Shown here: positions 39,443 to 56,126 of the stretch, one piece after another
Position numbering within the stretch: position 1 is the first letter of the stretch
Layout of the letters: every line of letters starts with the position of its first letter
Assembly: GCF_026125785.1 (NCBI RefSeq)
Contig: NZ_JAHCKL010000004.1
Coordinates: 1 to 64,000, forward strand
Length of the DNA: 64,000 nucleotides
Direction of reading: 5' to 3'
DNA from: Hydrogenophaga sp.
GTDB taxonomy: Bacteria; Pseudomonadota; Gammaproteobacteria; Burkholderiales; Burkholderiaceae_C
Program-made: the position numbers and the translations under genes
Notes under the pieces: model-generated
Told to the model about the DNA's origin: nothing
The model's input: the letters and a program-made list of their open reading frames with translations, nothing else
The model's database searches: none

Positions 39443-41242
39443 ATGTCCGCATCTCTTCCCAAGCGTCAGTTCGACGTGGTCATCGTCGGCGCCGGTGGCT
39501 CCGGCATGCGCGCCTCGCTGCAGCTCGCCCGCGCCGGCCTGAAGGTGGCCGTGCTCTCCAAAGTCTTCCCCACCCGCTCGCACACCGTGGCCGCGCAGGG
39601 CGGCATTGGTGCCTCGCTGGGCAACATGAACGAGGACAACTGGCACTACCACTTCTACGACACCATCAAGGGTTCCGATTGGCTGGGTGACCAGGACGCC
39701 ATCGAGTTCATGTGCCGTGAAGCCCCGAAGGTGGTGTACGAACTCGAGCACTTCGGCATGCCGTTCGACCGCAACCCCGACGGCACCATCTACCAGCGTC
39801 CCTTTGGCGGACATACCGCCAACTACGGCGAGAAGCCTGTGCAGCGCGCGTGCGCCGCGGCCGACCGCACCGGCCACGCCATGCTGCACACCCTCTACCA
39901 GCAGAACGTAGCGGCCCGCACGACCTTCTTCGTCGAGTGGATGGCGCTGGACCTGATCCGTGACGCCAGCGGCGACGTGGTCGGCGTGACCGCGCTGGAA
40001 ATGGAAACCGGCGAAACCTACATCCTGGAAGCCAAGACCACGCTGCTGGCCACCGGCGGTGCCGGCCGCATCTTCGCGGCCTCCACCAACGCCTTCATCA
40101 ACACCGGTGACGGCCTGGGCATGGCCGCGCGTGCCGGCATTCCGCTGCAGGACATGGAGTTCTGGCAGTTCCACCCGACCGGCGTGGCCGGCGCGGGCGT
40201 GCTGCTCACCGAAGGCTGCCGCGGCGAGGGTGCCATCCTGCGCAACAGCGAAGGCGAGCGCTTCATGGAGCGGTATGCCCCGACCCTGAAAGACCTGGCA
40301 CCGCGCGACTTCGTGTCGCGCTGCATGGACCAGGAGATCAAGGAAGGACGCGGCTGTGGTCCCAACAAGGACTACATCCATCTGGACATGACCCACATCG
40401 GCGTGGCCGACATCATGAAGCGCCTGCCCTCGGTCTACGAGATCGGGCACAACTTCGCCAATGTCGACATCACGAAGGACCCAATTCCCGTGGTGCCGAC
40501 CATCCACTACCAGATGGGCGGCATTCCGACCAACATCCATGGTCAGGTGGTCACGCCCGACGGGCAAGGCAACCAGAAGGTGGTCAATGGCCTGTATGCG
40601 GTGGGCGAATGCTCCTGCGTGAGCGTGCACGGCGCCAACCGGCTGGGCACCAACTCGCTGCTCGATCTGCTGGTGTTCGGACGCGCCGCGGGCAATCACA
40701 TCGTCCAGTACAACGACAAGAACAAGACCCACAAGCCGATGCCCGCCGATGCCGCCGATGCCACGCTGGCCCGGCTGGCCCGGCTGGACGCATCGACCAG
40801 CGGCGAGTACGCGCAGGACGTGGCCAACGACATGCGCACCGCGATGCAGCAGCACGCAGGCGTGTTCCGCACGCAGGCCAGCATGGACGAAGGCGTGGTC
40901 AAGATCAACGCCATGCGTGACCGTGTCGCCAACATCACGCTCAAGGACAAGTCCAAGGTGTTCAACACGGCGCGGATCGAGGCGCTTGAAGTGGAAAACC
41001 TGATCGAATGCGCCCAGGCCACCATGACCTCGGCGGCAGCGCGCCGCGAATGCCGCGGTGCCCATACGGTCAACGACTACGAGCGGCCGGCCGACGATGC
41101 CCAGTTCCCGCTGGGCCGCAACGACGCGGAATGGATGAAGCACACGCTGTGGCACAGCGCGGACAACAGCCTGACTTACAAACCCGTCAATCTCAAGCCC
41201 CTGACCGTGGAGTCGGTGCCGCCCAAGGTGCGCACCTTCTGA
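39443..41242 (+). CDS. sdhA: Succinate dehydrogenase flavoprotein subunit
   Basis: The 599-residue catalytic subunit oxidises succinate with covalently bound FAD. The FAD site is VGAGGSGMRASLQLA, the flavinylation His lies in RSHTVAAQGGIGASLGN, and the catalytic region shows HPTGVAGAGVLLTEGCRGEG and RPFGGHTANYGEKPVQRAC. The C-terminus ends in the usual PPKVRTF-like tail. SdhE, its flavinylation factor, is encoded three genes downstream. Confidence 0.98.
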   Translation: MSASLPKRQFDVVIVGAGGSGMRASLQLARAGLKVAVLSKVFPTRSHTVAAQGGIGASLGNMNEDNWHYHFYDTIKGSDWLGDQDAIEFMCREAPKVVYELEHFGMPFDRNPDGTIYQRPFGGHTANYGEKPVQRACAAADRTGHAMLHTLYQQNVAARTTFFVEWMALDLIRDASGDVVGVTALEMETGETYILEAKTTLLATGGAGRIFAASTNAFINTGDGLGMAARAGIPLQDMEFWQFHPTGVAGAGVLLTEGCRGEGAILRNSEGERFMERYAPTLKDLAPRDFVSRCMDQEIKEGRGCGPNKDYIHLDMTHIGVADIMKRLPSVYEIGHNFANVDITKDPIPVVPTIHYQMGGIPTNIHGQVVTPDGQGNQKVVNGLYAVGECSCVSVHGANRLGTNSLLDLLVFGRAAGNHIVQYNDKNKTHKPMPADAADATLARLARLDASTSGEYAQDVANDMRTAMQQHAGVFRTQASMDEGVVKINAMRDRVANITLKDKSKVFNTARIEALEVENLIECAQATMTSAAARRECRGAHTVNDYERPADDAQFPLGRNDAEWMKHTLWHSADNSLTYKPVNLKPLTVESVPPKVRTF

Positions 41243-41279
41243 CACCACCGTTCCCACGACGCTCGGAGAAAAAAACACC

Positions 41280-41984
41280 ATGGCCAAACGCACATTCAAG
41301 ATCTACCGCTACGACCCCGAAAAGGACGCCAAGCCCTACATGCAGACCATCGAGGTGGAACTCGATGGCCACGAGCGCATGCTGCTGGACGCGCTGATGA
41401 AACTCAAGGCGGTCGATCCCAGCATCTCTTTCCGCCGCTCGTGCCGCGAAGGGGTGTGCGGCTCGGACGCGATGAACATCAACGGCAAGAACGGCCTGGC
41501 CTGCCTGACCAACATGAACACGCTGCCTGGCGTGATCACCTTGAAGCCCTTGCCCGGCCTGCCCGTGGTGCGTGACCTCATCGTGGACATGACGCTGTTC
41601 TTCAAGCAGTACCACAGCATCAAGCCCTACCTGATCAACGAGACCATCGCCCCGGAAAAGGAACGCCTGCAGAGCCCCGAGGAGCGCGAGGAGCTCAACG
41701 GCCTGTACGAGTGCATCCTGTGCGCGAGCTGCTCCACGAGCTGCCCGAGCTTCTGGTGGAACCCGGACAAGTTCGTGGGGCCGGCAGGCCTGCTGCAGGC
41801 CTACCGCTTCATTGCGGACAGCCGAGACCAGGCCACCAGCGAGCGTCTGGACAACCTGGAAGACCCCTACCGGCTGTTCCGCTGCCACACCATCATGAAC
41901 TGCGTGGACGTCTGCCCCAAGAGCCTGAACCCGACCAAGGCCATCGGCAAGATCAAGGAAATGATGGTGATGCGCGCGGTCTGA
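41280..41984 (+). CDS. sdhB: Succinate dehydrogenase iron–sulfur subunit
   Basis: The 234-residue protein carries all three clusters: [2Fe-2S] in CREGVCGSDAMNINGKNGLAC (split across a loop), [4Fe-4S] in CILCASCSTSCPSFWWNP and [3Fe-4S] in CHTIMNCVDVCPKSLNP. It passes electrons from SdhA to the quinone site at SdhC/SdhD. It lies 37 bases after sdhA. Confidence 0.98.
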   Translation: MAKRTFKIYRYDPEKDAKPYMQTIEVELDGHERMLLDALMKLKAVDPSISFRRSCREGVCGSDAMNINGKNGLACLTNMNTLPGVITLKPLPGLPVVRDLIVDMTLFFKQYHSIKPYLINETIAPEKERLQSPEEREELNGLYECILCASCSTSCPSFWWNPDKFVGPAGLLQAYRFIADSRDQATSERLDNLEDPYRLFRCHTIMNCVDVCPKSLNPTKAIGKIKEMMVMRAV

Positions 41985-42009
41985 GCCCGCTGCCTCGCCC
42001 AGGAAACCC

Positions 42010-42303
42010 ATGGAAGCTACCCTCCCGCCCGACACCCTGCTCGACGAACGCCGTCTGAGCAAGCTGCGCTGGAGGTGCCGCCGCGGGTTGCTCGAGAACG
42101 ATCTGTTCATCGAGCGTTTTTTTGCCAGGCACGAATCTGGCTTGACCCTAGGTCAGGCCGGTGCCCTGGAGGCGCTCATGGATCTGTCCGACAACGATCT
42201 GCTCGATCTGTTGCTGGGCCGCAAGCCTCTCCAGGGTGACCTGGTCCGTGACGACGTCACGCAAGTGCTGGGCCTGCTGCGTGCGGCCCGGCAACCCGTT
42301 TAA
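42010..42303 (+). CDS. sdhE: SdhE-family FAD assembly factor
   Basis: The 97-residue protein has the SdhE/Sdh5 core [19 protein letters not shown], in which RGxxE is the motif needed to attach FAD to SdhA. It lies 25 bases after sdhB and 22 bases before gltA, so it belongs to the same operon. Confidence 0.95.
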
Positions 42304-42325
42304 GTCAGCCTTAAAAGGAAACCGC

Positions 42326-43636
42326 ATGAAACTCGTAGACAACAAAGCCACCCTGTCGTTCTCCAACGGCAGCCCCAGCGTGGACCTGCCGGTGTACGCC
42401 GGCAGCATCGGCCCGGACGTGATCGACATCCGCAAGCTCTACGCGCAAACCGGCATGTTCACCTACGACCCCGGTTTCCTCTCCACCGCATCGTGCCAGT
42501 CCGCCATCACCTACATCGATGGCGACAAGGGTGAGCTGCTGTACCGTGGCTACCCCATCGAGCAACTCGCCACCCAATGCGACTACCTCGACACCTGCTA
42601 CCTGCTGCTCAACGGCGAGCTGCCCAACGAGTCGCAGCGCACCGATTTCCACAAGCTCGTGACCAACCACACCATGGTCAACGAACAGATGCAGTTCTTC
42701 CTGCGTGGCTTCCGCCGTGACGCGCACCCGATGGCCGTGCTCACGGGCTTGGTGGGCGGGCTGTCGGCCTTCTACCACGACAGCACGGACATCAACAACC
42801 CGAAGCACCGTGAGATCGCGGCCATCCGCCTGATCGCCAAGATGCCCACGCTGGTGGCCATGGCCTACAAGTACGGCATCGGCCAGCCTTACATGTACCC
42901 GAAGAACGACCTGAGCTACTCGGGCAACTTCCTGCGCATGATGTTTGGCACGCCCTGCGAGGAGTACGTGGTGAACCCGGTGCTCGAGCGCGCACTCGAC
43001 CGCATCTTCATCCTGCACGCCGACCACGAGCAGAACGCCTCCACCTCCACCGTGCGCCTGTGCGGCTCTTCCGGCACCAACCCGTTCGCCGCCGTCGCGG
43101 CCGGTGTCGCCTGCCTCTGGGGTCCGGCCCACGGCGGCGCCAACGAGGCCTGCCTGAACATGCTGGAGGACATCCAGCGCAACGGCGGCATCTCCAAGGT
43201 GGGCGAGTTCATGGAGAAGGTCAAGGACAAGAACTCCGGCGTCAAGCTGATGGGCTTTGGCCACCGCGTGTACAAGAACTACGACCCGCGCGCCAAGCTG
43301 ATGCAGGAAACCTGCAACGAGGTGCTGCAGGAGCTGGGCCTGGAGAAGGATCCGCTGTTCGCCCTGGCCAAGCAGCTCGAGAAGATCGCTCTGGAAGACG
43401 ACTACTTCGTGCAGCGCAAGCTCTACCCGAACGTGGACTTCTACTCCGGCATCGTGCAACGCGCCATCGGCATCCCGGTGAACCTGTTCACCGGGATCTT
43501 CGCCCTGGCCCGCACTGTGGGTTGGATCGCCCAACTCAACGAGATGATCGGCGACCCCGAGTACAAGATTGGCCGTCCGCGCCAGCTCTTCACCGGTTCG
43601 CCGCGCCGTGACGTCAAGCCCATGGCCCAGCGCTGA
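42326..43636 (+). CDS. gltA: Citrate synthase (type II)
   Basis: The 436-residue enzyme condenses oxaloacetate and acetyl-CoA. It shows [22 protein letters not shown] at the start (family N-terminal domain), the catalytic His regions [12 protein letters not shown] and [10 protein letters not shown], and [14 protein letters not shown] with substrate-binding Arg. Its length fits the NADH-sensitive hexameric type of Gram-negative bacteria. I chose the ATG at 42326, with AAGGA seven bases upstream. It is the last gene before a strong terminator. Confidence 0.98.
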
Positions 43637-43660
43637 GCCGGCCTTGCGCCTGCAGCAAGC

Positions 43661-43685
43661 AAGCCCGCCTCCGGCGGGCTTTTTT
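43661..43685 (+). terminator. Rho-independent terminator of the sdh–gltA operon
   Basis: AAGCCCGCC and GGCGGGCTT form a 9-bp stem with a TCC loop, followed directly by a T-run, 25 bases after the gltA stop. Confidence 0.95.
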
Positions 43686-43714
43686 GCGGCCACAGCCTGC
43701 GCACAGAGGCACAC

Positions 43715-43739
43715 CAGCCATCTCATTACGAGATGGCTG
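43715..43739. promoter_or_regulatory. Probable LysR-type operator upstream of the LTTR gene
   Basis: CAGCCATCTC and GAGATGGCTG are perfect 10-bp arms around ATTAC. The inner ATCTC-N5-GAGAT fits the T-N11-A pattern of LysR-type binding sites. It lies 61 bases before the LysR start and is not followed by a T-run, so an operator is more likely than a second terminator. Confidence 0.55.
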
Positions 43740-43799
43740 GAATAGGCCTTGTGCAGCAAAATAGCCCTTCTTGTTCGCCGATTGAGAAGCCTCCAGGCC

Positions 43800-44729
43800 A
43801 TGTTGTCCGAACGCAATTTCGCCCGCCAGATCGATCTCACCTCGCTGCAGCTCTTCGTGGCCGTGTGCGAGCTGGGCAGCATCGGCCGCGCGGCGCAGCG
43901 GGAGTTCATTGCGGCATCGGCCATCAGCAAACGGCTGTCCGACCTCGAAACCGCCCTGGGCACACCGCTGTTGCATCGCCATGCGCGCGGCGTGCGCCTC
44001 ACCCCTGCCGGCGAGGGCCTGCTGCACCATGCGCGAGCCGTGCTGTTCGGCCTGGAAAAGATGCAGACCGAGCTGGCCGAGTACGCCGATGGCGTGCGTG
44101 GCCATGTGCGTGTGCACGCCAGCATCTCCGCCATCGTGCAATTCCTGCCAGAGGACCTGGGGTCTTTCGCGCGGCGCCATCCCCAGATCAAGATCGACTT
44201 GGAAGAACACCTCAGCCCTGAGGTGCTGCGCGCGGTCCAGGAGGGGGCAGCGGATCTGGGCCTGTGCAACGGCGCGGTGGGGGCCGGCGGCCTGCAGTCC
44301 CTGCCTTACCGAAACGACCAGTTGGTGCTGGTGGTGCCCCGAGGCCATGCACTGGCCGGAGCCGGCGAGGCGGTGGCCTTCGAAGCCACCCTACCGTACG
44401 ACCACGTGGGCCTGCACGCCAACAGCTCCATTCACTTGGCCACCCACCAGGCCGCCGCGCGCTCGGGCACCACGGTGCGCGTGCGCATCCGCGTCACCGG
44501 ACTTGACGCCATGTGCCGCATGATCGCCAATGGCCTGGGCGTTGGCGTCATGCCAGAACGCGCCTTCGCACTGCTGCATACCGGCGATGCGCTGCAAGCC
44601 GTGCCGCTCACCGATCCCTGGGCCCGGCGCCAACTGGTGCTGGTGGCCCGCGACTTCTCCAGCCTGCCCAGCACGGCACGCCTGCTGGTCGACCACCTGC
44701 GCAGCGAACCGCTTCAACAGGCCGCATAG
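43800..44729 (+). CDS. LysR-family transcriptional regulator
   Basis: The 309-residue protein has an N-terminal LysR winged helix ([21 protein letters not shown] … [38 protein letters not shown]) and the usual effector domain ([34 protein letters not shown]). I chose the ATG at 43800 from the conserved domain start; earlier in-frame ATGs lie near the operator. It precedes leuC by 28 bases on the same strand, so it may regulate leucine biosynthesis or the convergent TCA flux. The inducer is unknown. Confidence 0.92.
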
Positions 44730-44757
44730 AATCTTCCAACCACCACGAGTTTCCCCC

Positions 44758-46179
44758 ATGGCACGCACGCTCTACGACAAGATCTGGGACGAACACGTCG
44801 TCCACACCGAGGAAGACGGCACCTCCGTCCTGTACATCGATCGCCATCTGGTCCATGAAGTGACCAGTCCCCAGGCCTTTGAAGGCCTGCGCCAGTCCGG
44901 CCGCAAGGTCTGGCGTGTGAGTTCCGTCGTGGCCACGGCGGATCACAACACCCCAACCACGGGCTGGGAACTGGGCTACGACGGCATCACGGACCCGATC
45001 AGCAAGGAACAGATCACGACGCTGGACGCCAACATCGCCGAGTTCGGGGCCGCCGCCTTCTTTCCCTTCATGTCCCAGCGCCAGGGCATCGTGCACGTCA
45101 TAGGACCGGAGAACGGCGCCACGCTGCCTGGCATGACGGTGGTCTGCGGCGACAGCCACACGTCCACCCACGGTGCCTTCGGAGCGTTGGCCCATGGCAT
45201 CGGCACCAGCGAGGTCGAGCATGTGCTGGCCACGCAGACCCTGCTGGCCAAGAAGGCCAGGAACATGCTGGTGCGTGTGGACGGTCAGCTCGCCCGCGGC
45301 TGCACAGCCAAGGACATCGTGCTCGCCATCATCGGCAAGATCGGCACCGCTGGCGGTACCGGCTACACGATCGAGTTCGGCGGCGCGGCCATCCGCGCCC
45401 TCAGCATGGAAGGCCGCATGACGGTCTGCAACATGGCCATCGAAGCGGGTGCGCGCGCCGGTCTGGTGGCGGTGGACGAGAAGACCATCGAATACGTCAA
45501 GGGCCGCCCGCTGGCGCCCACCGGCGTCGAATGGGAGCAGGCCGTGGCGTACTGGAAGACGCTGCAATCCGATCCAGATGCGAAGTTCGACGCCGTGGTC
45601 GAACTCGACGCGGCGCGCATCGTGCCGCAGGTCACCTGGGGCACCTCGCCCGAAATGGTACTTGGCATCGACGGCGCGGTGCCGGACCCCGACCGCGAGA
45701 AGGACCCGAGCAAGCGCGGTGCCATCGAGCGTGCCCTGACCTACATGAACCTGCAGCCAGGCAAACCTCTCAACGACATCTTCGTCGACAAGGTGTTCAT
45801 CGGCTCCTGCACAAACAGCCGCATCGAGGACATGCGCGAGGCCGCGGCGGTGGTGAAGAAGCTCGGCCAGCGCGTCGCTCGAAACGTCAAGCTGGCGATG
45901 GTGGTGCCTGGCTCCGGGCTGGTGAAAGCCCAGGCCGAACGCGAAGGCCTGCACGAGATCTTCAAGGCGGCCGGCTTTGAATGGCGCGAGCCTGGCTGCT
46001 CGATGTGCCTGGCCATGAACGCCGACCGCCTCGAACCTGGCGAGCGCTGCGCGTCCACCAGCAACCGCAACTTCGAAGGCCGCCAGGGTGCCGGCGGCCG
46101 GACCCATCTCGTTTCCCCCGCCATGGCGGCCGCTGCGGCCGTGCATGGTCATTTCGTCGATGTCCGTCAATTTGCCTGA
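44758..46179 (+). CDS. leuC: 3-isopropylmalate dehydratase large subunit
   Basis: LeuC with LeuD isomerises 2- to 3-isopropylmalate in leucine synthesis. The 473-residue protein is of the aconitase superfamily, starts [15 protein letters not shown], and carries [23 protein letters not shown], the cluster Cys in [12 protein letters not shown] and the pair in [14 protein letters not shown] chose the ATG at 44758 from the conserved start. It heads the run leuC–ecn–leuD–leuB. Confidence 0.98.
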
Positions 46180-46199
46180 ACCGAAGAAAGGAACTCACC

Positions 46200-46331
46200 A
46201 TGAAAACGCTCGCTTCCCTTCTGATCGCCTCTTTCGTGCTGGCTCTGGCTGGCTGCAACACCGTCCAGGGCGTGGGCCAGGACATCCAGCGGGGCGGCCA
46301 GGTTCTTGAAGACGCGGCCAAGAAGAAGTGA
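46200..46331 (+). CDS. Entericidin-type small lipoprotein
   Basis: The 43-residue product has a lipoprotein signal ([14 protein letters not shown]) with Cys19 as the lipidation site, and a short tail [21 protein letters not shown], as in the entericidin EcnA/EcnB family. These are small envelope lipoproteins, in some bacteria linked to stress-induced lysis. AAGGAAC lies upstream. It is placed between leuC and leuD, and its stop codon overlaps the leuD start (TGATG), so it is co-translated with a biosynthetic operon. Confidence 0.9.
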
Positions 46332-46975
46332 TGAACAAGTTCAACGTGCACAAGGGCCTCGTGGCCCCGATGGACCGCGAGAACGTCGACACCGACGCCA
46401 TCATTCCCAAGCAGTTTCTCAAGTCGATCCGCAAGACCGGCTTCGGCCCGAACCTGTTCGACGAGTGGCGTTACCTCGACAAGGGCGAGCCGGGCCAGGA
46501 CCCGGCAAACCGCAAGCCCAACCCGGACTTCGTGCTCAACCAGCCGCGTTACTCCGGGGCGTCGGTGCTGCTGGCCCGCAAGAACTTCGGCTGCGGCTCG
46601 TCGCGCGAACACGCGCCGTGGGCGATCGAGCAGTACGGCTTTCGGGCACTGATCGCGCCCAGCTATGCAGACATCTTCTTCAACAACTGCTTCAAGAACG
46701 GTCTGCTGCCCATCCAACTGTCCGAGGCCCAGGTCTCGCAGTTGTTCGATGAGGTGGCCGCCTTTCCCGGCTACGAGCTGACCGTTGACCTGGAGCGCCA
46801 GGTCATCGTGAAACCTCAGGGCGAGGAGATTCCGTTCGACGTCCAACCGTTCCGCCGCTATTGCCTGCTCAATGGCCTGGACGACATTGGCCTGACGCTG
46901 CGCTACAAGGACAAGATCGCCGCCTTCGAGGCGGAGCGCCTGGCCACCAAACCCTGGCTCGCGCACACCCTGTAA
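46331..46975 (+). CDS. leuD: 3-isopropylmalate dehydratase small subunit
   Basis: The 214-residue small subunit has the swivelling-domain signature [20 protein letters not shown] and starts [29 protein letters not shown]. The ATG at 46331 shares one base with the stop of the lipoprotein gene; a GTG immediately before it is less likely. It forms the active isomerase with LeuC. Confidence 0.98.
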
Positions 46976-47009
46976 GCCTGCGCCAGAACCAACGTTCAAC
47001 TACGTACCC

Positions 47010-48080
47010 ATGAAAATTGCAGTTCTCCCCGGTGACGGCATCGGCACCGAAATCGTCGCCGAGGCCATCAGGGTCCTCAACGCGCTGGCCTTGCCCTTCG
47101 AGATGGAAACCGCCCTGGTGGGCGGCGCCGCCTACGAAGCCCATGGCCACCCACTGCCGGAATCCACGCTCAAGCTCGCCAAGGAAGCGGACGCCGTGCT
47201 GTTCGGCGCGGTGGGTGACTGGAAGTACGACAAGCTCGATCGGCCTCTGCGTCCCGAACAGGCCATCCTGGGGCTGCGCAAGAACCTCGGCCTGTTCGCC
47301 AACTTCCGGCCCGCCATCTGCTACCCCGAACTGGTCGGCGCCTCCAGCCTCAAGCCCGAGGTCATCGCCGGGCTCGACATCCTCATCATCCGTGAGCTCA
47401 CGGGCGACATCTACTTCGGCCAGCCGCGGGGGCGGCGCACCGCCACCGACGGTCATTTCCCCGGTGCCGAGGAGGCCTTCGACACCATGCGCTACAGCAA
47501 GCCGGAGATCGAGCGCATCGCCCACGTGGCCTTCCAGGCAGCCCGTAAACGCAACCGCAAGGTGACGAGTGTGGACAAGGCCAACGTGCTGGAAACCTTC
47601 CAGTTCTGGAAGGATGTGGTCACGGAGGTGCACCAGCAGTACCCGGACGTGGAGCTCGAGCACATGTATGTGGACAACGCGGCCATGCAACTCGTGCGTG
47701 CACCCAAGAAATTCGACGTGGTCGTCACGGGCAATATGTTTGGCGACATCCTCTCCGACGAGGCCTCCATGCTCACCGGCTCCATCGGCATGCTGCCGTC
47801 GGCATCGCTGAACACGAAGAACCAGGGCCTGTACGAGCCCAGCCATGGCAGCGCCCCTGACATCGCGGGCAAAGGCATAGCCAACCCGCTGGCCACGATT
47901 CTCTCGGCAGCCATGATGCTGCGTTTCAGCCTGAACCAGGAAGCCGCCGCCCAGCGTATCGAGGCAGCCGTGCAGAAGGTGCTGGCACAAGGCCTGCGTA
48001 CCGCCGACATCCACAGCGAAGGCACGACCAAGGTCGGCACGGCGGAAATGGGTGACGCCGTGCTGCGTGCGCTGGACTGA
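47010..48080 (+). CDS. leuB: 3-isopropylmalate dehydrogenase
   Basis: The 356-residue NAD-dependent enzyme decarboxylates 3-isopropylmalate. Visible marks are [15 protein letters not shown] at the start, [31 protein letters not shown] with the catalytic Lys, [19 protein letters not shown] with the metal-binding Asp residues, and [18 protein letters not shown] near the end. A terminator follows 26 bases after the stop. Confidence 0.98.
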
Positions 48081-48105
48081 CGGCACGCCGCCACACCATG
48101 CTCCC

Positions 48106-48130
48106 AAAGGCCATCCGCGGATGGCCTTTT
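48106..48130 (+). terminator. Rho-independent terminator after leuB
   Basis: AAAGGCCATC and GATGGCCTTT form a 10-bp stem around a CGCG loop and run into TTTT. It closes the leu operon and leaves asd to its own promoter. Confidence 0.9.
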
Positions 48131-48131
48131 C

Positions 48132-48160
48132 TCTTGGTTTCAAGCCGCTTCCGCTACAAT
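48132..48160 (+). promoter_or_regulatory. Predicted promoter of the asd leader
   Basis: TACAAT (48155–48160) is a good -10 box. TCTTGG (48132–48137) or TTGGTT (48134–48139) could be the -35 box, with 17 or 15 bases between. The start point would then fall at about 48166–48169, on or next to the ATG of the leader peptide, so the leader may be translated from a nearly leaderless transcript. Confidence 0.5.
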
Positions 48161-48168
48161 CCATACCC

Positions 48169-48270
48169 ATGTTTGCCGCCAGCACGTTCGCCCTGAACAC
48201 CGCACCCGCCGCCATGGCTGGTGTTGCCGCGCGCGCAATCTCCACCAAAACCACGACCATTAAGGGCTGA
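48169..48270 (+). CDS. Putative leader peptide controlling asd (Thr/Ile/Lys-rich end)
   Basis: This 33-codon frame ends in ISTKTTTIKG. The C-terminal ten codons comprise four Thr, two Ile and two Lys, amino acids made from the product of asd. The threonine operon leader of E. coli has a very similar composition (RISTTITTTITITT). The stop lies 99 bases before asd, and alternative hairpins follow immediately. An internal ATG at 48214 would give an 18-residue version with the same end. No ribosome binding site is seen. That it works as an attenuator is inference. Confidence 0.6.
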   Translation: MFAASTFALNTAPAAMAGVAARAISTKTTTIKG

Positions 48271-48274
48271 CCCA

Positions 48275-48344
48275 GTCCCGGTACCGTCGTGCGCCCTCCC
48301 CGGCCAGACGAGCCGGGCAAGTCGGTCCGGTCGGGACCTGTTTT
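48275..48344 (+). promoter_or_regulatory. Attenuator-like competing hairpins upstream of asd
   Basis: GGTCC (48324–48328) can pair with GGACC (48334–48338), followed by TGTTTT: a short intrinsic terminator. The same 3' strand as CGGGAC (48332–48337) can instead pair with GTCCCG (48275–48280), only five bases after the leader stop. A separate CCCGGC/GCCGGG stem (48299–48304 with 48312–48317) lies between. A ribosome at the leader stop would cover GTCCCG and favour the terminator; one stalled at the Thr codons would leave it free. Confidence 0.5.
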
Positions 48345-48369
48345 CTGTAACTTGAAAGGGCGTTTTCAA

Positions 48370-49500
48370 ATGAGCAAGTTGGTTGGTCTGGTCGGCTGGC
48401 GCGGCATGGTCGGCTCCGTGTTGATGGATCGCATGGTCGAGGAAAAAGACTTCGACCTGATCGAGCCCCTGTTTTTCTCCACCTCCAACGCCGGCGGCAA
48501 AGCACCGGCCATGGCGAAAAACGAAACCCGCCTGCAGGATGCCCATGACATCGCAGCCCTTCAGCGCTGCGACATCGTCATCACCGCGCAGGGCGGCGAC
48601 TACACCAACGAGGTCTACCCCAAATTGCGTGCGGCTGGCTGGAACGGCCACTGGATCGATGCAGCCTCGGCGCTGCGCATGGACAAGAATGCCGTGATCG
48701 TCCTGGACCCGGTGAACATGCCGGTCATCAAGAACGCCCTCGCCAAGGGCGGCAAGGACTGGATCGGCGGCAACTGCACGGTGAGCTGCATGCTCATGGG
48801 CGTGGGGGCGCTGTACAAGGCCGGCCTCGTCGAATGGATGAGCACGCAAACCTACCAGGCGGCATCGGGCGGCGGCGCGCAACACATGCGTGAGCTGCTC
48901 ACGCAATACGGCACGCTCAACGCCGAAGTCAGAGACCTGCTGGACGACCCCAAGAGCGCCATTCTGGAAATCGACCGCAAGGTCATCGCACGCCAGCGCG
49001 CGCTCAGCGGCGCGGAAACGGCCAATTTCGGCGTTCCCCTGGGTGGCTCGCTGATTCCCTGGATCGACAAGGACCTGGGCAACGGCGTGTCCAAGGAAGA
49101 ATGGAAGGGCATGGCCGAGACCAACAAGATCCTCGGTATGGGCGAGGACTTCGGCTCTGCGGCCATTCCGGTCGACGGCTTCTGCGTGCGCGTTGGCGCC
49201 ATGCGCTGCCACAGCCAGGCCCTGACCTTCAAGCTGAAGAAAGATGTGCCGCTGGCCGACGTCGAAGCCATGATCGCCGCCGACAACGCATGGGTGAAGG
49301 TCGTGCCCAACACACGCGAAGCCACCGTGCGCGACCTGACACCTGTGGCGGTGACCGGCACGATGACCATCCCCGTGGGACGCATCCGCAAGCTGGCCAT
49401 GGGGCCTGAGTACCTGGGTGCCTTCACCATCGGTGACCAATTGCTCTGGGGCGCGGCGGAACCGCTGCGCCGCATGCTGCGCATCCTGCTCGACGCCTGA
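48370..49500 (+). CDS. asd: Aspartate-semialdehyde dehydrogenase
   Basis: The 376-residue enzyme makes aspartate semialdehyde, the branch point to lysine, threonine, methionine and isoleucine. It is of the E. coli type: [18 protein letters not shown] with the NADP site, the catalytic Cys136 in [12 protein letters not shown], and the substrate Arg in [16 protein letters not shown]. The ATG at 48370 follows AAAGGG. A Thr/Ile/Lys-coding leader and alternative hairpins upstream suggest attenuation by its end products. Confidence 0.97.
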
Positions 49501-49520
49501 TGCCCCTGATGGGCAGGTAA

Positions 49521-49552
49521 CAACGTGATTCGGCTGATGCCGAATCACGTTG
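49521..49552. repeat. Perfect 14-bp inverted repeat between asd and fimV
   Basis: CAACGTGATTCGGC and GCCGAATCACGTTG flank a TGAT loop, 20 bases after the asd stop. The stem is perfect, but no T-tract follows on either side, so it is not a standard terminator. It may stabilise the asd mRNA end, act as a terminator with help, or be a DNA binding site. Confidence 0.7.
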
Positions 49553-49682
49553 CGCCTCTGCAACGCGAAAACCGGCTGTATCCCGACAGACGACCGGCTG
49601 AGAAACTCAAGCGGATTCTCAGCTTGTCACCGTAATCTGTTGATGTTAAGGTCAATTCTCGGTTTTTTACGTCGAGGTCCAA

Positions 49683-52478
49683 GTGCCATCCACCCCCCGT
49701 CACACCCCATCCCCGAAGACGCATCGCGTGCAACAAAGCGTTGGCATGCGAGGTCTGGTCCGGTTGCATGCGGTCGCTGCGGCGGCGATGCTGTGCGCGG
49801 GCTTCCTGCAGCCGACCGATGCCCAGGCCCTGGCCCTGGGTCGCGTGGTCGTCCAATCGGCGCTGGGCGAACCCCTTCGGGCCGAAATTGACGTTCCCGA
49901 CATCAACAACGAAGAGGCATCCAGCCTGCGTGTGAATCTCGCACCCGCCGAGGCCTTCCGTGCGGCCGGCATCGATCTCAACGCCGCACTGAGCACCCTG
50001 CAAATCAGCCTGCAACGCCGCGCGGATGGCCGCGCCTACCTGCGGCTGACCAGCGCACGCCCGATCACCGAGCCTTTCGTGGACCTGATCGTGGAAGCCA
50101 ACTGGGCCTCCGGCCGCATCGTGCGCGACTACACCTTGCTCTTCGACCCGCCCAACCTGCGCGCCGCGCAGCAGCCCGCGCCGCTGGCACCGGGTGTGAG
50201 CAGCACGCCACCCGCCACCACGGCGCAGGCACCTCGCCCCATTCCTCCGGTCGCGCAGGCGCCGACACCACCGGCCACCGCGCCCGCCCCGGCACCGGTT
50301 GCCCGCACAGCTCCCGCCCCCGCGCCCACACCTGCTGCGCGCACCCCTGCGCCTGCACCTGCTCCTTCTGCCGGTAGCGGCAACCAGCAGGTTCGCGTGC
50401 GAGCGGGGGACACCGCTGGCGCCATCGCCGCAGCCAATCGCCCAGCCCAGGTGTCGTTGGACCAGATGCTCGTGGCCATGCTGCGGGCCAACCCGAACGC
50501 CTTCATCGACGGCAACGTCAACCGCATCAAGGCTGGCACGGTGCTGGACATGCCGGCGGCCCAGGAAGCGGCGGCGGTCAGCCCTGGTGAAGCACGCCAG
50601 ACCATCGCGGCCCAGAGCCGCGATTTCAACGAATTCCGCCGCCGTCTGGCGGGCAGCGCGCCAGCCGCGGGCGTAGCCGCTGCGGACCGGCAAGCCGCAG
50701 GCCGCGTGCAGACGGAGGTACAGGAAGCCAAACCTGCCGCGCCCTCACCGGACAAGCTCACGCTGTCCAAGGAAGCCACCGTCACCGGACAGGGCAGCCG
50801 CGAGGACCAGATCGCCAAGGAGCGTCAGGCGCAGGATCTGTCGAACCGCAGGGCTGAGTTGTCACGCAACATCGAAGAGCTCTCCAAGCTGGGTGCTGGC
50901 ACGCCGCCAGCCGCAGCGCCAGCGCCTGCCGCCCCGGCAGCTGCAGCGCCAGCCACTCCAGCGGCGGTAGCGCCAGCGCCCGCCGCACCGGCACCCGCGG
51001 CCGATGCAGGCACCAGCGTGGCGCCAGCGGTGACCATACCGACCACACCTCCGCCCGAAGCCAGTGCGTCGGCGCCAGTCGAGGCGGTCGCCCCCGCGGC
51101 ACCGGCCGCCGAAACCGCCGCTTCTGCGCCATCGACCACACCCTCTGTGGCCACAGCGCCGCGCCCGGTACCCGTGCCGTTGCCCGACGAGCCAACCTTC
51201 CTCGAACAACTGCGCGACAACCCTCTGGTGCTGCCGCTGGCCGGCGGTTTGGCCGTGCTGCTGGCCGCACTCGGCTTCTACCGCATGCGCCAGCGCAAGC
51301 ACGGCGCCAACGTGGACAGCTCATTCCTGGAAAGCCGGCTGCAGCCGGACTCCTTCTTCGGCTCCAGCGGCGGCCAGCGCATCGACACCGCCGAATCGGT
51401 CGCCTCGGGATCGTCCATGGTGTACTCACCCAGTCAGCTCGACGCGGCTGGCGACGTGGACCCTGTGGCCGAGGCAGACGTTTACCTGGCCTATGGCCGT
51501 GACCTGCAGGCCGAGGAAATCCTCAAGGAAGCCATGCGCAGCACGCCTACGCGGGTGGCCATTCACAACAAGCTGCTGGAAATTTATGCCAAACGGCGCG
51601 ATGCACGCGCCTTCGAGGTCGTGGCCACCGAAGCGTACGGCCTCACGCAAGGCCAGGGCCCCGAGTGGGAGCACGCCTGCGAAATGGGCCGCGAACTGGA
51701 CCCCTCCAACCCGCTGTACCAGCCTGGAGGAGCGCCTGCGGTGAAGGCCGCCGCCGCAGCCGGCGTGATCGGTGCTGGCGCCAACACCATGCCCTTCGGC
51801 AGCAGCACGCTGGCCGAGGCCACGGGCGCAGCCACTCCATCGGGCATGGGCAGCCTGGACCTGGACCTGGACTTCTCTCTGGATGAGCCTTCCGCTCCCG
51901 CGCCGCTGGACAACAAGGCCGCTGGCGGCCCCGCCCTGGAAGACCCCGTGTTTTCGGGCATGGACGACCTGCAGATCACCGAAGACCTGACGCGCCAACC
52001 ACCCGTCCAGGACGATGCCCCTTCCTCGATGTCGATGGACTTCGATCTGGACTTTCCCTCTGGCCCGGCGCCGCTGAGCCCCTCGACGGACGCCGCGGCC
52101 GCCAGCGAGACCACGGCCACATCCGTGCGCGGATCCCTCGGGCAGGAGGTGCCTCCGCTGTCCATGGACCTCGACGCGCCGGTCTCGGCCGCTGCCGAGC
52201 CGTTCAGCCAGCCTGCGGTACCGGAATTGATGTCTTTCAACCTGAACGACATCAACCTGGAATTGGACAACCCTGCGGCGCAGCCTGCCGCGGACGACGT
52301 CACCCGTTCGGGACGCCTGACGGAAGAGAATCCACTGGAAACCAAGCTCTCGCTGGCGGAGGAGTTCCGCGCCATTGGTGATTTCGAAGGCGCCCGCTCG
52401 CTGGCGGAAGAGGTGCTTGCCGAGGCCTCCGGCACCCTCAAGACCAAGGCCGGCACTTTCCTGGCTGATCTGGCCTGA
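49683..52478 (+). CDS. fimV: FimV-family peptidoglycan-binding/TPR protein
   Basis: The 931-residue protein resembles FimV, an inner-membrane hub for type IV pilus and polar functions. It has a signal segment, an N-terminal domain opening LGRVVVQSALGEPLRAEIDVP, a LysM-like domain (about 237–295), a long Ala/Pro-rich linker, one membrane helix (about 515–535), an acidic cytoplasmic region and a C-terminal FimV/TPR motif (ETKLSLAEEFRAIGDFEGARSL, near 890–931). I chose GTG at 49683 because GAGG lies five bases upstream; an ATG at 49746 is the alternative. It is followed by truA with an 8-base gap. Confidence 0.93.
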   Translation: MPSTPRHTPSPKTHRVQQSVGMRGLVRLHAVAAAAMLCAGFLQPTDAQALALGRVVVQSALGEPLRAEIDVPDINNEEASSLRVNLAPAEAFRAAGIDLNAALSTLQISLQRRADGRAYLRLTSARPITEPFVDLIVEANWASGRIVRDYTLLFDPPNLRAAQQPAPLAPGVSSTPPATTAQAPRPIPPVAQAPTPPATAPAPAPVARTAPAPAPTPAARTPAPAPAPSAGSGNQQVRVRAGDTAGAIAAANRPAQVSLDQMLVAMLRANPNAFIDGNVNRIKAGTVLDMPAAQEAAAVSPGEARQTIAAQSRDFNEFRRRLAGSAPAAGVAAADRQAAGRVQTEVQEAKPAAPSPDKLTLSKEATVTGQGSREDQIAKERQAQDLSNRRAELSRNIEELSKLGAGTPPAAAPAPAAPAAAAPATPAAVAPAPAAPAPAADAGTSVAPAVTIPTTPPPEASASAPVEAVAPAAPAAETAASAPSTTPSVATAPRPVPVPLPDEPTFLEQLRDNPLVLPLAGGLAVLLAALGFYRMRQRKHGANVDSSFLESRLQPDSFFGSSGGQRIDTAESVASGSSMVYSPSQLDAAGDVDPVAEADVYLAYGRDLQAEEILKEAMRSTPTRVAIHNKLLEIYAKRRDARAFEVVATEAYGLTQGQGPEWEHACEMGRELDPSNPLYQPGGAPAVKAAAAAGVIGAGANTMPFGSSTLAEATGAATPSGMGSLDLDLDFSLDEPSAPAPLDNKAAGGPALEDPVFSGMDDLQITEDLTRQPPVQDDAPSSMSMDFDLDFPSGPAPLSPSTDAAAASETTATSVRGSLGQEVPPLSMDLDAPVSAAAEPFSQPAVPELMSFNLNDINLELDNPAAQPAADDVTRSGRLTEENPLETKLSLAEEFRAIGDFEGARSLAEEVLAEASGTLKTKAGTFLADLA

Positions 52479-52486
52479 ACGACGCC

Positions 52487-53314
52487 TTGCCCCCTGCCCA
52501 GTCAGCGGACGTCCCCGGACATCCGCTCCAGCGCGTTGCGCTGGGTGTGAGCTACAACGGACGCCACTACGACGGCTGGCAAAGCCAGCCGGGTGGCCGC
52601 ACCGTACAAGACCATCTGGAACGCGCGCTCACCCAGTTCACGGCCGACGAGCCGGTGCGCACCCTGTGCGCAGGGCGGACAGACGCCGGCGTACACGGTC
52701 TCATGCAAGTGGTGCACTTCGATACCGCCCTGTCCCGCTCGGACTACGCCTGGATGCGGGGAACCAATCGCTTCCTGCCAGCCGACATCGCCGTGCAATG
52801 GGCCCGCCATGTTCCGGCCAGCTTCCATGCCAGGGCCAGCGCGCTCGCCCGCCGCTACGCCTACGTGCTGCTGGAATCGCCGGTACGTCCCAGCGTGGAT
52901 GAAGGTCAGGTCGGCTGGGTGTTCCGGCCACTGTCCATGGCACCCATGCAGGAAGCCGCGCAGATGCTGATCGGCCTGCACGACTTCACCTCTTTTCGTG
53001 CTGCGCAGTGCCAGGCCCACTCGCCAGTGAAGGAGATGCTGCGGGTGGACATCGCGCGGCGTGGCGCCTACTGGCGCTTCGAGTTCGAGGCCACGGCCTT
53101 CCTGCACCACATGATCCGCAACATCATGGGCTGCCTGATGGCCATTGGCACCGGCAACCGCCCGGCAACTTGGATGGGTGAGGTGCTGAAAGCCCGCAGC
53201 CGCGACGCGGCGGCCCCCACCTTTTCCCCGGACGGCCTGTACTTTCTTGGCCCGGTATACGATCCCGCGCTGAATCTGCCGGACCGTACGCCCGCTTTCG
53301 ACTGGCTGCCATGA
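52487..53314 (+). CDS. truA: tRNA pseudouridine(38–40) synthase, TTG start
   Basis: TruA modifies uridines in the tRNA anticodon arm. The 275-residue protein has the catalytic Asp66 in CAGRTDAGVHGLMQVVHFD, the start LGVSYNGRHYDGWQSQ and the C-terminal FLHHMIRNIMGCL. No ATG precedes the conserved start; TTG at 52487, eight bases after the fimV stop, is the best choice. It overlaps trpF by four bases. Confidence 0.95.
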   Translation: MPPAQSADVPGHPLQRVALGVSYNGRHYDGWQSQPGGRTVQDHLERALTQFTADEPVRTLCAGRTDAGVHGLMQVVHFDTALSRSDYAWMRGTNRFLPADIAVQWARHVPASFHARASALARRYAYVLLESPVRPSVDEGQVGWVFRPLSMAPMQEAAQMLIGLHDFTSFRAAQCQAHSPVKEMLRVDIARRGAYWRFEFEATAFLHHMIRNIMGCLMAIGTGNRPATWMGEVLKARSRDAAAPTFSPDGLYFLGPVYDPALNLPDRTPAFDWLP

Positions 53315-53997
53315 ACAACCCAGCTCACCGCACCCGCATCAAGATCTGCGGCCTGACACGCGAAGGCGACGTGCAGACGGCCGTGCGCGCGGGCGCAGAT
53401 GCCGTGGGTTTCGTGCTGTACGAGAAGAGTCCACGCCATGTGACGCCGCAGCGCGCGGGCGAACTGGCCCGGCATGTGCCCGCCTTCGTCACCCCGGTGC
53501 TGCTTTTCGTGAACGCCAGTCCGGAGTACATCGAGCAAGCCTGCCGCGCCGTACCCCAGGCGCTGCTGCAGTTCCATGGGGACGAATCCCCCGCCGAATG
53601 TGCCGCAGCGACCCGCCCCTTCCTGCGTGCCGCCCGCATTCCCACAGGGACCGCTGGCCAGACCTTCGATCTCCTAAAATACGCGTCTGACTTCTCGGCC
53701 GCCCAGGCCATCCTGCTCGACGCACTGGTGGATGGTTATGGCGGCGGTGGTCAATCCTTCGACTGGACAGCCTTCCCTTGGTCACATCCACTTCTAAACG
53801 CCAGCTCTCGCCTCGTTTTGTCTGGTGGACTCACGCCTGCAAACGTGACCGATGGCATCCTGCGCGTACGGCCCTGGGCCGTTGACGTGAGCTCGGGCGT
53901 CGAAATGTCCAAAGGCATCAAGGACGCCGACAAGATGCTCGCCTTCGTGGCCGCCGTGCGAGCGGCCGATGCGCAGATATCCCGCCAGCCTGGCTAG
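53311..53997 (+). CDS. trpF: Phosphoribosylanthranilate isomerase
   Basis: TrpF carries out the third step of tryptophan synthesis. The 228-residue TIM-barrel protein shows TRIKICGLT with the catalytic Cys13, LLQFHGDESPAEC, the catalytic Asp in LLDALVDGYGGGGQSFDW and LSGGLTPANVTDGI, followed by VDVSSGVEMSKGIKDADKM. It overlaps truA by four bases and precedes trpB by 54 bases. Confidence 0.97.
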   Translation: MNNPAHRTRIKICGLTREGDVQTAVRAGADAVGFVLYEKSPRHVTPQRAGELARHVPAFVTPVLLFVNASPEYIEQACRAVPQALLQFHGDESPAECAAATRPFLRAARIPTGTAGQTFDLLKYASDFSAAQAILLDALVDGYGGGGQSFDWTAFPWSHPLLNASSRLVLSGGLTPANVTDGILRVRPWAVDVSSGVEMSKGIKDADKMLAFVAAVRAADAQISRQPG

Positions 53998-54051
53998 CGC
54001 GCCCTTTATTCGGGGCCCCGGGCGGCGACCGAACCGGAAAGACACCCCTTC

Positions 54052-55316
<1,265 letters not shown>

Positions 55317-55320
<4 letters not shown>

Positions 55321-56126
55321 ACCGCATCGATGCCACTTTGAACGCGCTGAAGGCCCAGAACCGCAAGGCGCTCATCCCCTTCGTCACGGCAGGCTTTCCG
55401 TTTGCCGACATCACGCCGGACCTGATGCATGGCATGGCCGAGGCCGGCGCAGACATCATCGAACTGGGTGTGCCGTTTTCGGACCCCTCCGCCGATGGCC
55501 CCGTGATCCAGAAGGCCGGCGACCGAGCGCTGGCACTGGGCATTGGCCTGACCCAGGTGCTCGCCATGGTGCGCGGCTTCCGCGAGCGCAACAGCACGAC
55601 GCCGGTGGTGCTCATGGGTTACGCCAACCCGATCGAACGCTACGACCAGAAGCACGGGGCCGGCGCCTTCGTGCGCGATGCCAGCGCAGCCGGGGTCGAT
55701 GGCGTGCTGGTGGTGGACTACCCACCCGAAGAGTGCGAAGCTTTCGCCGAGGCGTTGCGCGCCCATGGCATGGACCTGATCTTTCTGCTTGCGCCCACCT
55801 CCACCGACGAACGCATGGCCCAGGTGGCGCGCATAGCCAGCGGTTATGTGTACTACGTGTCTCTCAAAGGTGTCACCGGTGCCGGCACCCTGGACGTTGC
55901 TCAGGTCGAGGCCATGCTGCCGCGAATCCGGCAGCACGTGCACATTCCGGTGGGCGTGGGCTTCGGCATCCGCGATGCCGAAACCGCCCGCGCAATTGGC
56001 CGAGCGGCCGACGCGGTGGTGATCGGGAGCCGGATCATCCAGCTCATCGAGAACGAGCCGCACGAAAAAGTGGTTGCCGTGGCGGCCCAATTCCTTCGCA
56101 CCATCCGAAAAGCGCTGGACGCATAA
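55317..56126 (+). CDS. trpA: Tryptophan synthase alpha chain
   Basis: The 269-residue TIM-barrel subunit splits indole-3-glycerol phosphate. It shows [11 protein letters not shown], the catalytic Glu in [17 protein letters not shown], the catalytic Asp in [13 protein letters not shown] and [15 protein letters not shown]. It partners TrpB. Confidence 0.98.

Follow-up and report, generated by a model that had tools for sequence, protein, structure and literature searches.

A Candidate Thr/Ile/Lys Leader-Peptide Attenuator Upstream of asd, Found Both as a Free Reading Frame and as the C-Terminal Tail of LeuB

Background

In the Escherichia coli thr leader (thrL, Rfam Thr_leader), a Thr/Ile-rich peptide is translated, the position of the ribosome picks the RNA structure, and the output is an intrinsic terminator. 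In the translational attenuators of ermC and cat, a ribosome stalled on the leader peptide frees the downstream Shine-Dalgarno sequence (SD), and the signal is a drug. The trpL of Sinorhizobium is a leaderless attenuator ORF that acts on tryptophan through transcription attenuation. The LEU element of actinobacterial leuA, as described in the accessible part of its report (PMC1262725), has an upstream ORF with a run of end-product codons and a structure involving the SD, and the codon run itself pairs with the SD at the base of a pseudoknot.

Here, we describe a candidate leader upstream of asd, the gene for aspartate-semialdehyde dehydrogenase, in a stretch of 64,000 nt of Hydrogenophaga sp. 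DNA (the window). As in E. coli thrL, the peptide is rich in the amino acids of the controlled pathway, and the position of the ribosome would select between alternative structures; however, the leader precedes asd, has Lys codons as well, and its conserved output is apparently the SD rather than an intrinsic terminator. As in ermC and cat, a stalled leader ribosome would free the SD of the downstream gene, but the predicted signal is a missing charged tRNA and not a drug, and the target is a biosynthetic gene. The leader resembles the LEU element, so far as the accessible part of that report goes, in joining an upstream ORF with end-product codons to a structure involving the SD, and differs in using a separate strand (M) and a competing pairing (2:C), in other taxa and before another gene. 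With Sinorhizobium trpL it would share an attenuator leader ORF with a leaderless start, whereas tryptophan and transcription attenuation are at work there.

Judged by titles and the beginnings of abstracts, the open-access literature searched contained neither an asd leader peptide nor an enzyme tail acting as a leader, and asd was not mentioned in the accessible parts of PMC2965389 and PMC1262725. If the reading given below is true, the entry enzyme of the Lys/Thr/Ile/Met branch is under attenuation in a large group of bacteria, a control for which these titles and abstract beginnings held no example.

Features of the asd Upstream Region

The gene starting at 48370 matches asd family models, and the parts of the locus are listed in Table 1. 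The 33-codon ATG frame ending in ISTKTTTIKG and followed by TGA, from which the original prediction had started, was confirmed. As had been proposed, the asd of the window also seems to form a separate unit, with a terminator-like hairpin after leuB and a -10-like box before the leader. A generic promoter scan reported no promoter at this box; its spacing to the ATG suggests that the leader ORF of the window is probably leaderless or nearly so. The fold of the whole region (48140-48372) was not unusual (z = -0.45).

Table 1. Positions of the features of the asd locus in the window
Feature	Position	Strand	Remarks
leuB (3-isopropylmalate dehydrogenase)	47010..48080	+	TIGR00169 equivalog; no Thr/Ile/Lys tail here
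Intrinsic-terminator-like hairpin 3' of leuB	48106..48129	+	10 pairs, then TCTCTTGGTT; divides leuB from the asd unit
-10-like TACAAT	48155..48160	+	8 nt 5' of leader ATG; read from the sequence, recurs in relatives
Leader ORF MFAASTFALNTAPAAMAGVAARAISTKTTTIKG	48169..48270	+	33 codons, ATG start, TGA stop; presumed regulatory Thr/Lys/Ile codons at 3' end
Strand 1, GGGCTGA	48264..48270	+	Gly codon and stop; may pair with start of strand 2 (folds)
Strand 2	48277..48288	+	Partner of strand C (predicted ON state); C-A mismatch 48284:48311 in the window
Strand M, GCGCCCT	48291..48297	+	Partner of asd SD AGGGCGT (predicted OFF state); covariation counted on relatives with shorter M
Strand B	48299..48304	+	Partner of 3' part of strand C (predicted OFF state); folds, weak covariation
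Strand C	48307..48317	+	Common to 2:C and B:C
Hairpin D, terminator-like, T-rich tail	48324..48338	+	Such hairpins in a minority of relatives
asd SD region AGGGCGT	48357..48363	+	
asd, aspartate-semialdehyde dehydrogenase	48370..49500	+	

Conservation of the Leader Upstream of asd

To compare the region among relatives, loci were collected from 80 named genome records. The window's genus, in which 56 of 60 genomes searched had asd, added 29 loci, and 120 further stretches were chosen by hand from sites in 160 genomes of the family and 200 of the order. This gave 230 loci including the window, with some genomes present twice. A leader was called in the first 110 loci when a frame ending upstream of asd had at least 6 Thr, Ile, or Lys residues (T/I/K) among its last 12, and the limit was lowered to 5 for the further loci.

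Conservation of the peptide C-terminus upstream of asd in relatives had been named as a check of the prediction, and it was found. The leader was present in 106/110 of the first loci, the window included; of the four without it, three hold only 40-120 nt of upstream sequence, and the fourth (L069) has no such frame. Among the further loci of the window's family (f1, L111-L207), 84/97 carried a leader, 45 as LeuB tails and 39 as free frames. The C-terminus of the window's frame thus recurs far beyond the genus, and none of the 20 fetched loci from families other than f1 and f31 had a leader. The best T/I/K score in loci without a leader was at most 4, which leaves a gap to the leader-bearing loci. 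The leader stop lay 72-166 nt 5' of asd (median 96, 190 leaders). Judged by these features, the leader has the look of an attenuator: a short conserved frame before a biosynthetic gene, rich in end-product codons.

Of the 192 leader loci, 190 entered the structure tests, L195 and L223 being set aside for want of the anchor; merging of duplicates gave 169, 171, or 161 sequences according to the stretch compared, and 168 after a length limit. The 190 include one f31 locus (L210), counted as a free leader unless filtered out.

The 13 further f1 loci without a leader were L127, L146-L148, L151, L154, L161, L163, L181, L186, L190, L192, and L193. LeuB was found in 12 of them; its C-terminus is ordinary and lies 12-181 nt from asd, and the leader may have been lost there.

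An RNA model of the leader matched the asd leader in this genome (next match, E = 8), and the single homoserine dehydrogenase gene found in the genome had no T/I/K frame upstream (best score 1). Against 150 genomes of the order, the model gave four matches, all in the window's family; these 150 may or may not include genomes with f31 leaders. In window positions 40000-56000 and in 11 related loci, matches to Rfam families all stayed below the cut-off, and Thr_leader was not matched.

Conserved RNA Strands Between the Leader and asd

The region 3' of the leader stop showed a recurring order of strand 2 ending in CGTC, strand M (CGCCC), strand B, strand C, and the asd SD (GGGCG). Strand 2 ended 14-18 nt after the stop in 168/169 leaders, and M lay 53-148 nt from asd. 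For the covariation analysis, 93 sequences were picked from the 190 (alignment A1), and 51 of these with the short form of M were picked by hand (A2); the other 42, with a long M in another register, stand outside the M:SD covariation count.

In the 93 chosen sequences, 2:C was paired in 90.4% of cells, compared with 34-54% in slid controls, and its covariation score was reached by 0/500 shuffles. By other measures, both-side changes were reached by 28/500 shuffles and pair types by 120/500, the latter not being unusual. In a swap test, strand 2 gave -22.3 with its own partner and -20.7 with swapped ones, a difference reached by 0/1000 swaps.

M:SD was paired in 76% of cells over the 51 chosen sequences, with a covariation score reached by 3/500 shuffles (both-side changes 16/500, pair types 260/500). 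In 161 sequences compared without an alignment, the own M:SD duplex scored -11.1 and swapped ones -10.4 (0/2000), and the preference held for the 61 LeuB-tail leaders (0/2000) and the 100 free leaders (12/2000). The solutions differ between lineages, such as TCGCCC/GGGCGA, GTGCGCC/GGCGCA, and CATTCC/GGAATG. Control pairings of M with codons of asd or of the leader showed no preference for the own partner. In a further control, strand 2 did prefer its own SD over swapped ones (1/500 for all sequences, 16/500 for 40 LeuB-tail leaders), so part of the M:SD swap signal may be relatedness, which the swap and shuffle tests leave in. At the pair next to CGCC/GGCG, T occurred with A in 20/21 loci and A or G with T in 89/103 (124 loci with both motifs). 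In a tree-aware test, one M:SD pair had 2-3 independent changes, nearly all in the right direction and too few for significance.

B:C was paired in 86% of cells with weak covariation throughout (score reached by 16/500). A hairpin of strands 1 and 2 at the stop codon, considered as a further conserved feature, was weak in the swap test, with 16/1000 swaps as good for all leaders and 518/1000 for the free type. The strands whose covariation had been named as a check (GTCCCG and CGGGAC) were not conserved in relatives, where 2:C and M:SD covary instead. These results suggest that the SD has a conserved partner strand that covaries with it, as would be expected of a translational attenuator.

In three loci (L162, L165, and L166), additional complementarity of ACAAACCC with GGGTTTGT lies 3' of strand C and is followed by a T-rich stretch; the OFF structure may thus take a variant form in this lineage.

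Predicted Switch by Ribosome Position and Proposed Mechanism

To model the effect of the leader ribosome, each leader was folded with the bases under the ribosome footprint masked, pairing being allowed again 13 nt past the first nucleotide of the A-site codon. When the ribosome moved from the second-last codon (Lys in most leaders) to the stop codon in 106 free leaders, the predicted SD accessibility fell from 0.40 to 0.13, M:SD rose from 0.27 to 0.80, and 2:C fell from 0.67 to 0.07. The window's own SD accessibility fell from 0.52 to 0.03. The switch was gone when strand 2 was shuffled (0.14 to 0.13). The 62 LeuB-tail leaders showed a small switch (0.34 to 0.25) above the shuffled control (p 6e-4). 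The predicted direction was right in 96/106 free and 42/62 LeuB-tail leaders; 18/62 of the latter switched by more than 0.1 and 3/62 went the wrong way by more than 0.1. In this folding model, mutually exclusive structures chosen by ribosome position are clear in the free leaders and weak in the LeuB-tail leaders.

The predicted switch leads to a model in which a stalled ribosome goes with 2:C and an open asd, and a ribosome at the stop with B:C, M:SD, and a closed asd. A shortage of charged tRNA for Thr, Ile, or Lys would stall the ribosome in the T/I/K run, leaving strand 2 free, so that 2:C would form, M would release the SD, and asd would be translated. When the tRNAs are charged, the ribosome would reach the stop codon and cover the start of strand 2, B:C would form, and M would pair with the SD and shut asd. 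In this genome, a separate and probably leaderless leader ORF with its own promoter-like box would make the decision; in the LeuB-tail relatives, each ribosome finishing leuB would do so. We regard it as likely that the leader peptide is an attenuator controlling asd translation with aspartate-family starvation as the signal. Taken across the loci compared, a widely conserved aspartate-family leader-peptide attenuator is most likely real and its mechanism most likely translational. If this is true, a leader that responds to amino-acid starvation can control the initiation of translation, and the attenuator is directly testable in culturable bacteria.

A variant compatible with this model is mixed control, in which the switch also governs Rho-dependent termination of the untranslated asd message. 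It fits both the SD switch and the leaders lacking terminator-like hairpins, but no observation made here demands a role of Rho, and we put it forward tentatively as a possible addition.

Terminator-like Hairpins and Transcription Attenuation

The original prediction held that the leader decides between a GGTCC/GGACC hairpin followed by T residues and an antiterminator pairing of GTCCCG with CGGGAC. The hairpin with its T-rich tail was found (hairpin D). The region 47900-48500 contained two terminator-like sites, the second being the site after leuB, against a shuffle mean of 0.6. Both antiterminator strands are also present (GTCCCG at 48275-48280, CGGGAC at 48332-48337), although the first begins four bases after the stop and not five as stated. 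In the relatives, however, this pairing fell away: GTCCCG followed the stop in 1/169 leaders, that of the window, and CGGGAC occurred downstream in 2/169. We rejected it as a conserved feature, the first strand being specific to this genome among those compared.

By one rule, a terminator-like hairpin was present in 17/108 free and 5/63 LeuB-tail leaders (22/171 in all), with mononucleotide-shuffle means of 3.6 and 0.8, respectively. Another rule, a T run with any adjacent hairpin, gave 25/108 free and 10/63 LeuB-tail leaders, with a stable hairpin in 13 and 2; this rule misses the window's hairpin. Intrinsic termination was rejected as the general output, a terminator-like hairpin being missing by the first rule from 149/171 leaders. 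A Thr_leader-type element has an intrinsic terminator conserved upstream of its first structural gene; no such conservation was found across the 171 leaders, and the window itself has a terminator-like hairpin.

These counts bear on transcription attenuation of the classical kind known from E. coli thr, in which the leader would decide the formation of a terminator from hairpin D and its U tract before asd. The hairpin in the window and the excess over shuffles in both types of leader speak for it, but most leaders lack such a hairpin, the proposed antiterminator strand is confined to one leader, and the conserved 2:C leaves hairpin D out, so that 2:C could not obviously control this hairpin. 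We consider this mechanism unlikely. Attenuation of asd by a Thr/Ile/Lys leader, the core of the earlier proposal, is strongly supported by conservation, whereas its output through a terminator opened by GTCCCG:CGGGAC is not.

Composition and Constraint of the Leader Peptide

The pathway downstream of Asd has Thr, Ile, and Lys among its end products. To characterize the peptide end, the eight residues before the last were counted in 169 distinct leaders (1352 residues): Thr made up 48%, Lys 24%, and Ile 20%, together 91%, and all three were present in 168/169 leaders. Met occurred 6 times, Asn once, Gln 5 times, and Pro 5 times. The leaders had been selected by T/I/K content, so the weight of these figures rests on the near absence of other G-poor residues and on the gap to the loci without a leader. 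Nucleotide composition as the cause of the run was ruled out, other G-poor residues being almost absent.

The order of the residues depends on the lineage and the composition is kept, as in KTTTIKG, ITKTITKG, ITTTKTIKS, ITGKTITTKT, and KTITTITKS, and the 169 leaders had 107 distinct C-terminal 10-mers. The free 33-codon ORF as a whole was weakly constrained (median dN/dS 0.66; 75 distinct ORFs, 298 pairs); its codons 24-33 showed little variation at every codon position and codons 2-23 much more. In the run, ATT made up 64% of Ile codons and AAA 52% of Lys codons, compared with 14% and 20% in the leuB body, whereas the Thr codons did not differ from the leuB body.

The conserved C-terminus could in principle act as an arrest peptide, responding to a small molecule from within the ribosome tunnel rather than to codons for uncharged tRNAs, and KTTTIKG is nearly constant in many free-ORF lineages. 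The changing order and kept composition seen across all leaders argue against this reading, which we consider very improbable, and appear to fit codon sensing better.

The Candidate Leader as a Free ORF and as the Tail of LeuB

The leader occurs in two homes. In the free form, 109/111 distinct leaders have an in-frame ATG that follows a -10-like box by 6-10 nt (66 of them by 8 nt), a distance implying that free leaders are probably translated leaderless or nearly so. In 69/192 loci, the T/I/K run is the C-terminus of LeuB itself, as in Hydrogenophaga sp. 2FB, whose LeuB ends in MGDAVVAAITKTITKG. T/I/K-rich LeuB tails were found in records of Roseateles, Rubrivivax, Methylibium, Aquabacterium, Paucibacter, Ideonella, and Sphaerotilus, and the fused LeuBs end 73-145 nt before asd.

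The tail is present in all 69 of these loci partly by definition, and the contrast with other LeuBs carries the weight. At least four T/I/K in the last eight residues were found in 0/88 LeuBs beside a free leader (maximum 2) and 0/32 without a leader (maximum 3), counting loci with LeuB on the same strand as asd and including duplicates. For one fused LeuB of 362 residues (L004), the match to the leuB family model stops at 350 and that to the nearest LeuB of solved structure (PDB 4iwh) at 355, just before TKTITKG. Given these comparisons and the scarcity of Asn, Gln, and Pro in the run, it is hardly credible that the run arose as a side effect of selection for unstructured G-poor mRNA or that the LeuB tail serves the enzyme, despite the ATT and AAA preference that would suit the former.

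In a quick LeuB tree, the free form required at least 10 changes, of which well supported branches force four, and the count for the three states taken jointly was 17; the tree has 151 rows, and 68/148 inner branches are poorly supported. These results suggest that the sensor probably moved between the LeuB end and a free ORF more than once, although gene transfer or weak branches may account for some of the pattern. Taking the LeuB comparisons together, we think it quite likely that in many genera the LeuB tail is an attenuator leader peptide whose last leuB codons sense Thr, Ile, and Lys and decide asd translation, and that the sensor shifted several times between the LeuB end and a free leaderless ORF. 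This use of the LeuB tail is the most surprising part of the finding. If true, an ordinary enzyme can supply the leader peptide of an amino-acid attenuator with its tail, leaders of this sort escape searches for short ORFs, and leucine and aspartate-family synthesis are linked by one transcript.

T/I/K-Rich Frames in a Second Family

In family f31, 57/60 genomes had asd, and 30 loci were taken (L231-L260). A T/I/K-rich frame (limit 8 in the last 14 residues) ended 78-88 nt before asd in 23/30 loci. TTCCCCG and CGGGGAA lay between its stop and asd in 23/23, in a hairpin arrangement that differs from f1, and CGTCGTGC, a string also seen in f1 free leaders, lay within 30 nt of the stop in 16/23. 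The footprint scan ran opposite to expectation, with SD accessibility rising from 0.41 to 0.53; either f31 would have a different output or the folding model fails there.

Other Features of the Window

Two further places in the window drew attention. At 43658-43749, sub-threshold Rfam matches occurred on both strands (P9, 30.9 bits against 43; Bp2_287, 23.8 against 70), perhaps reflecting just a hairpin. At 46200-46331, a frame between leuC and leuD (45981-46331) has a 43-residue end that we take to have the look of an entericidin-type lipoprotein.
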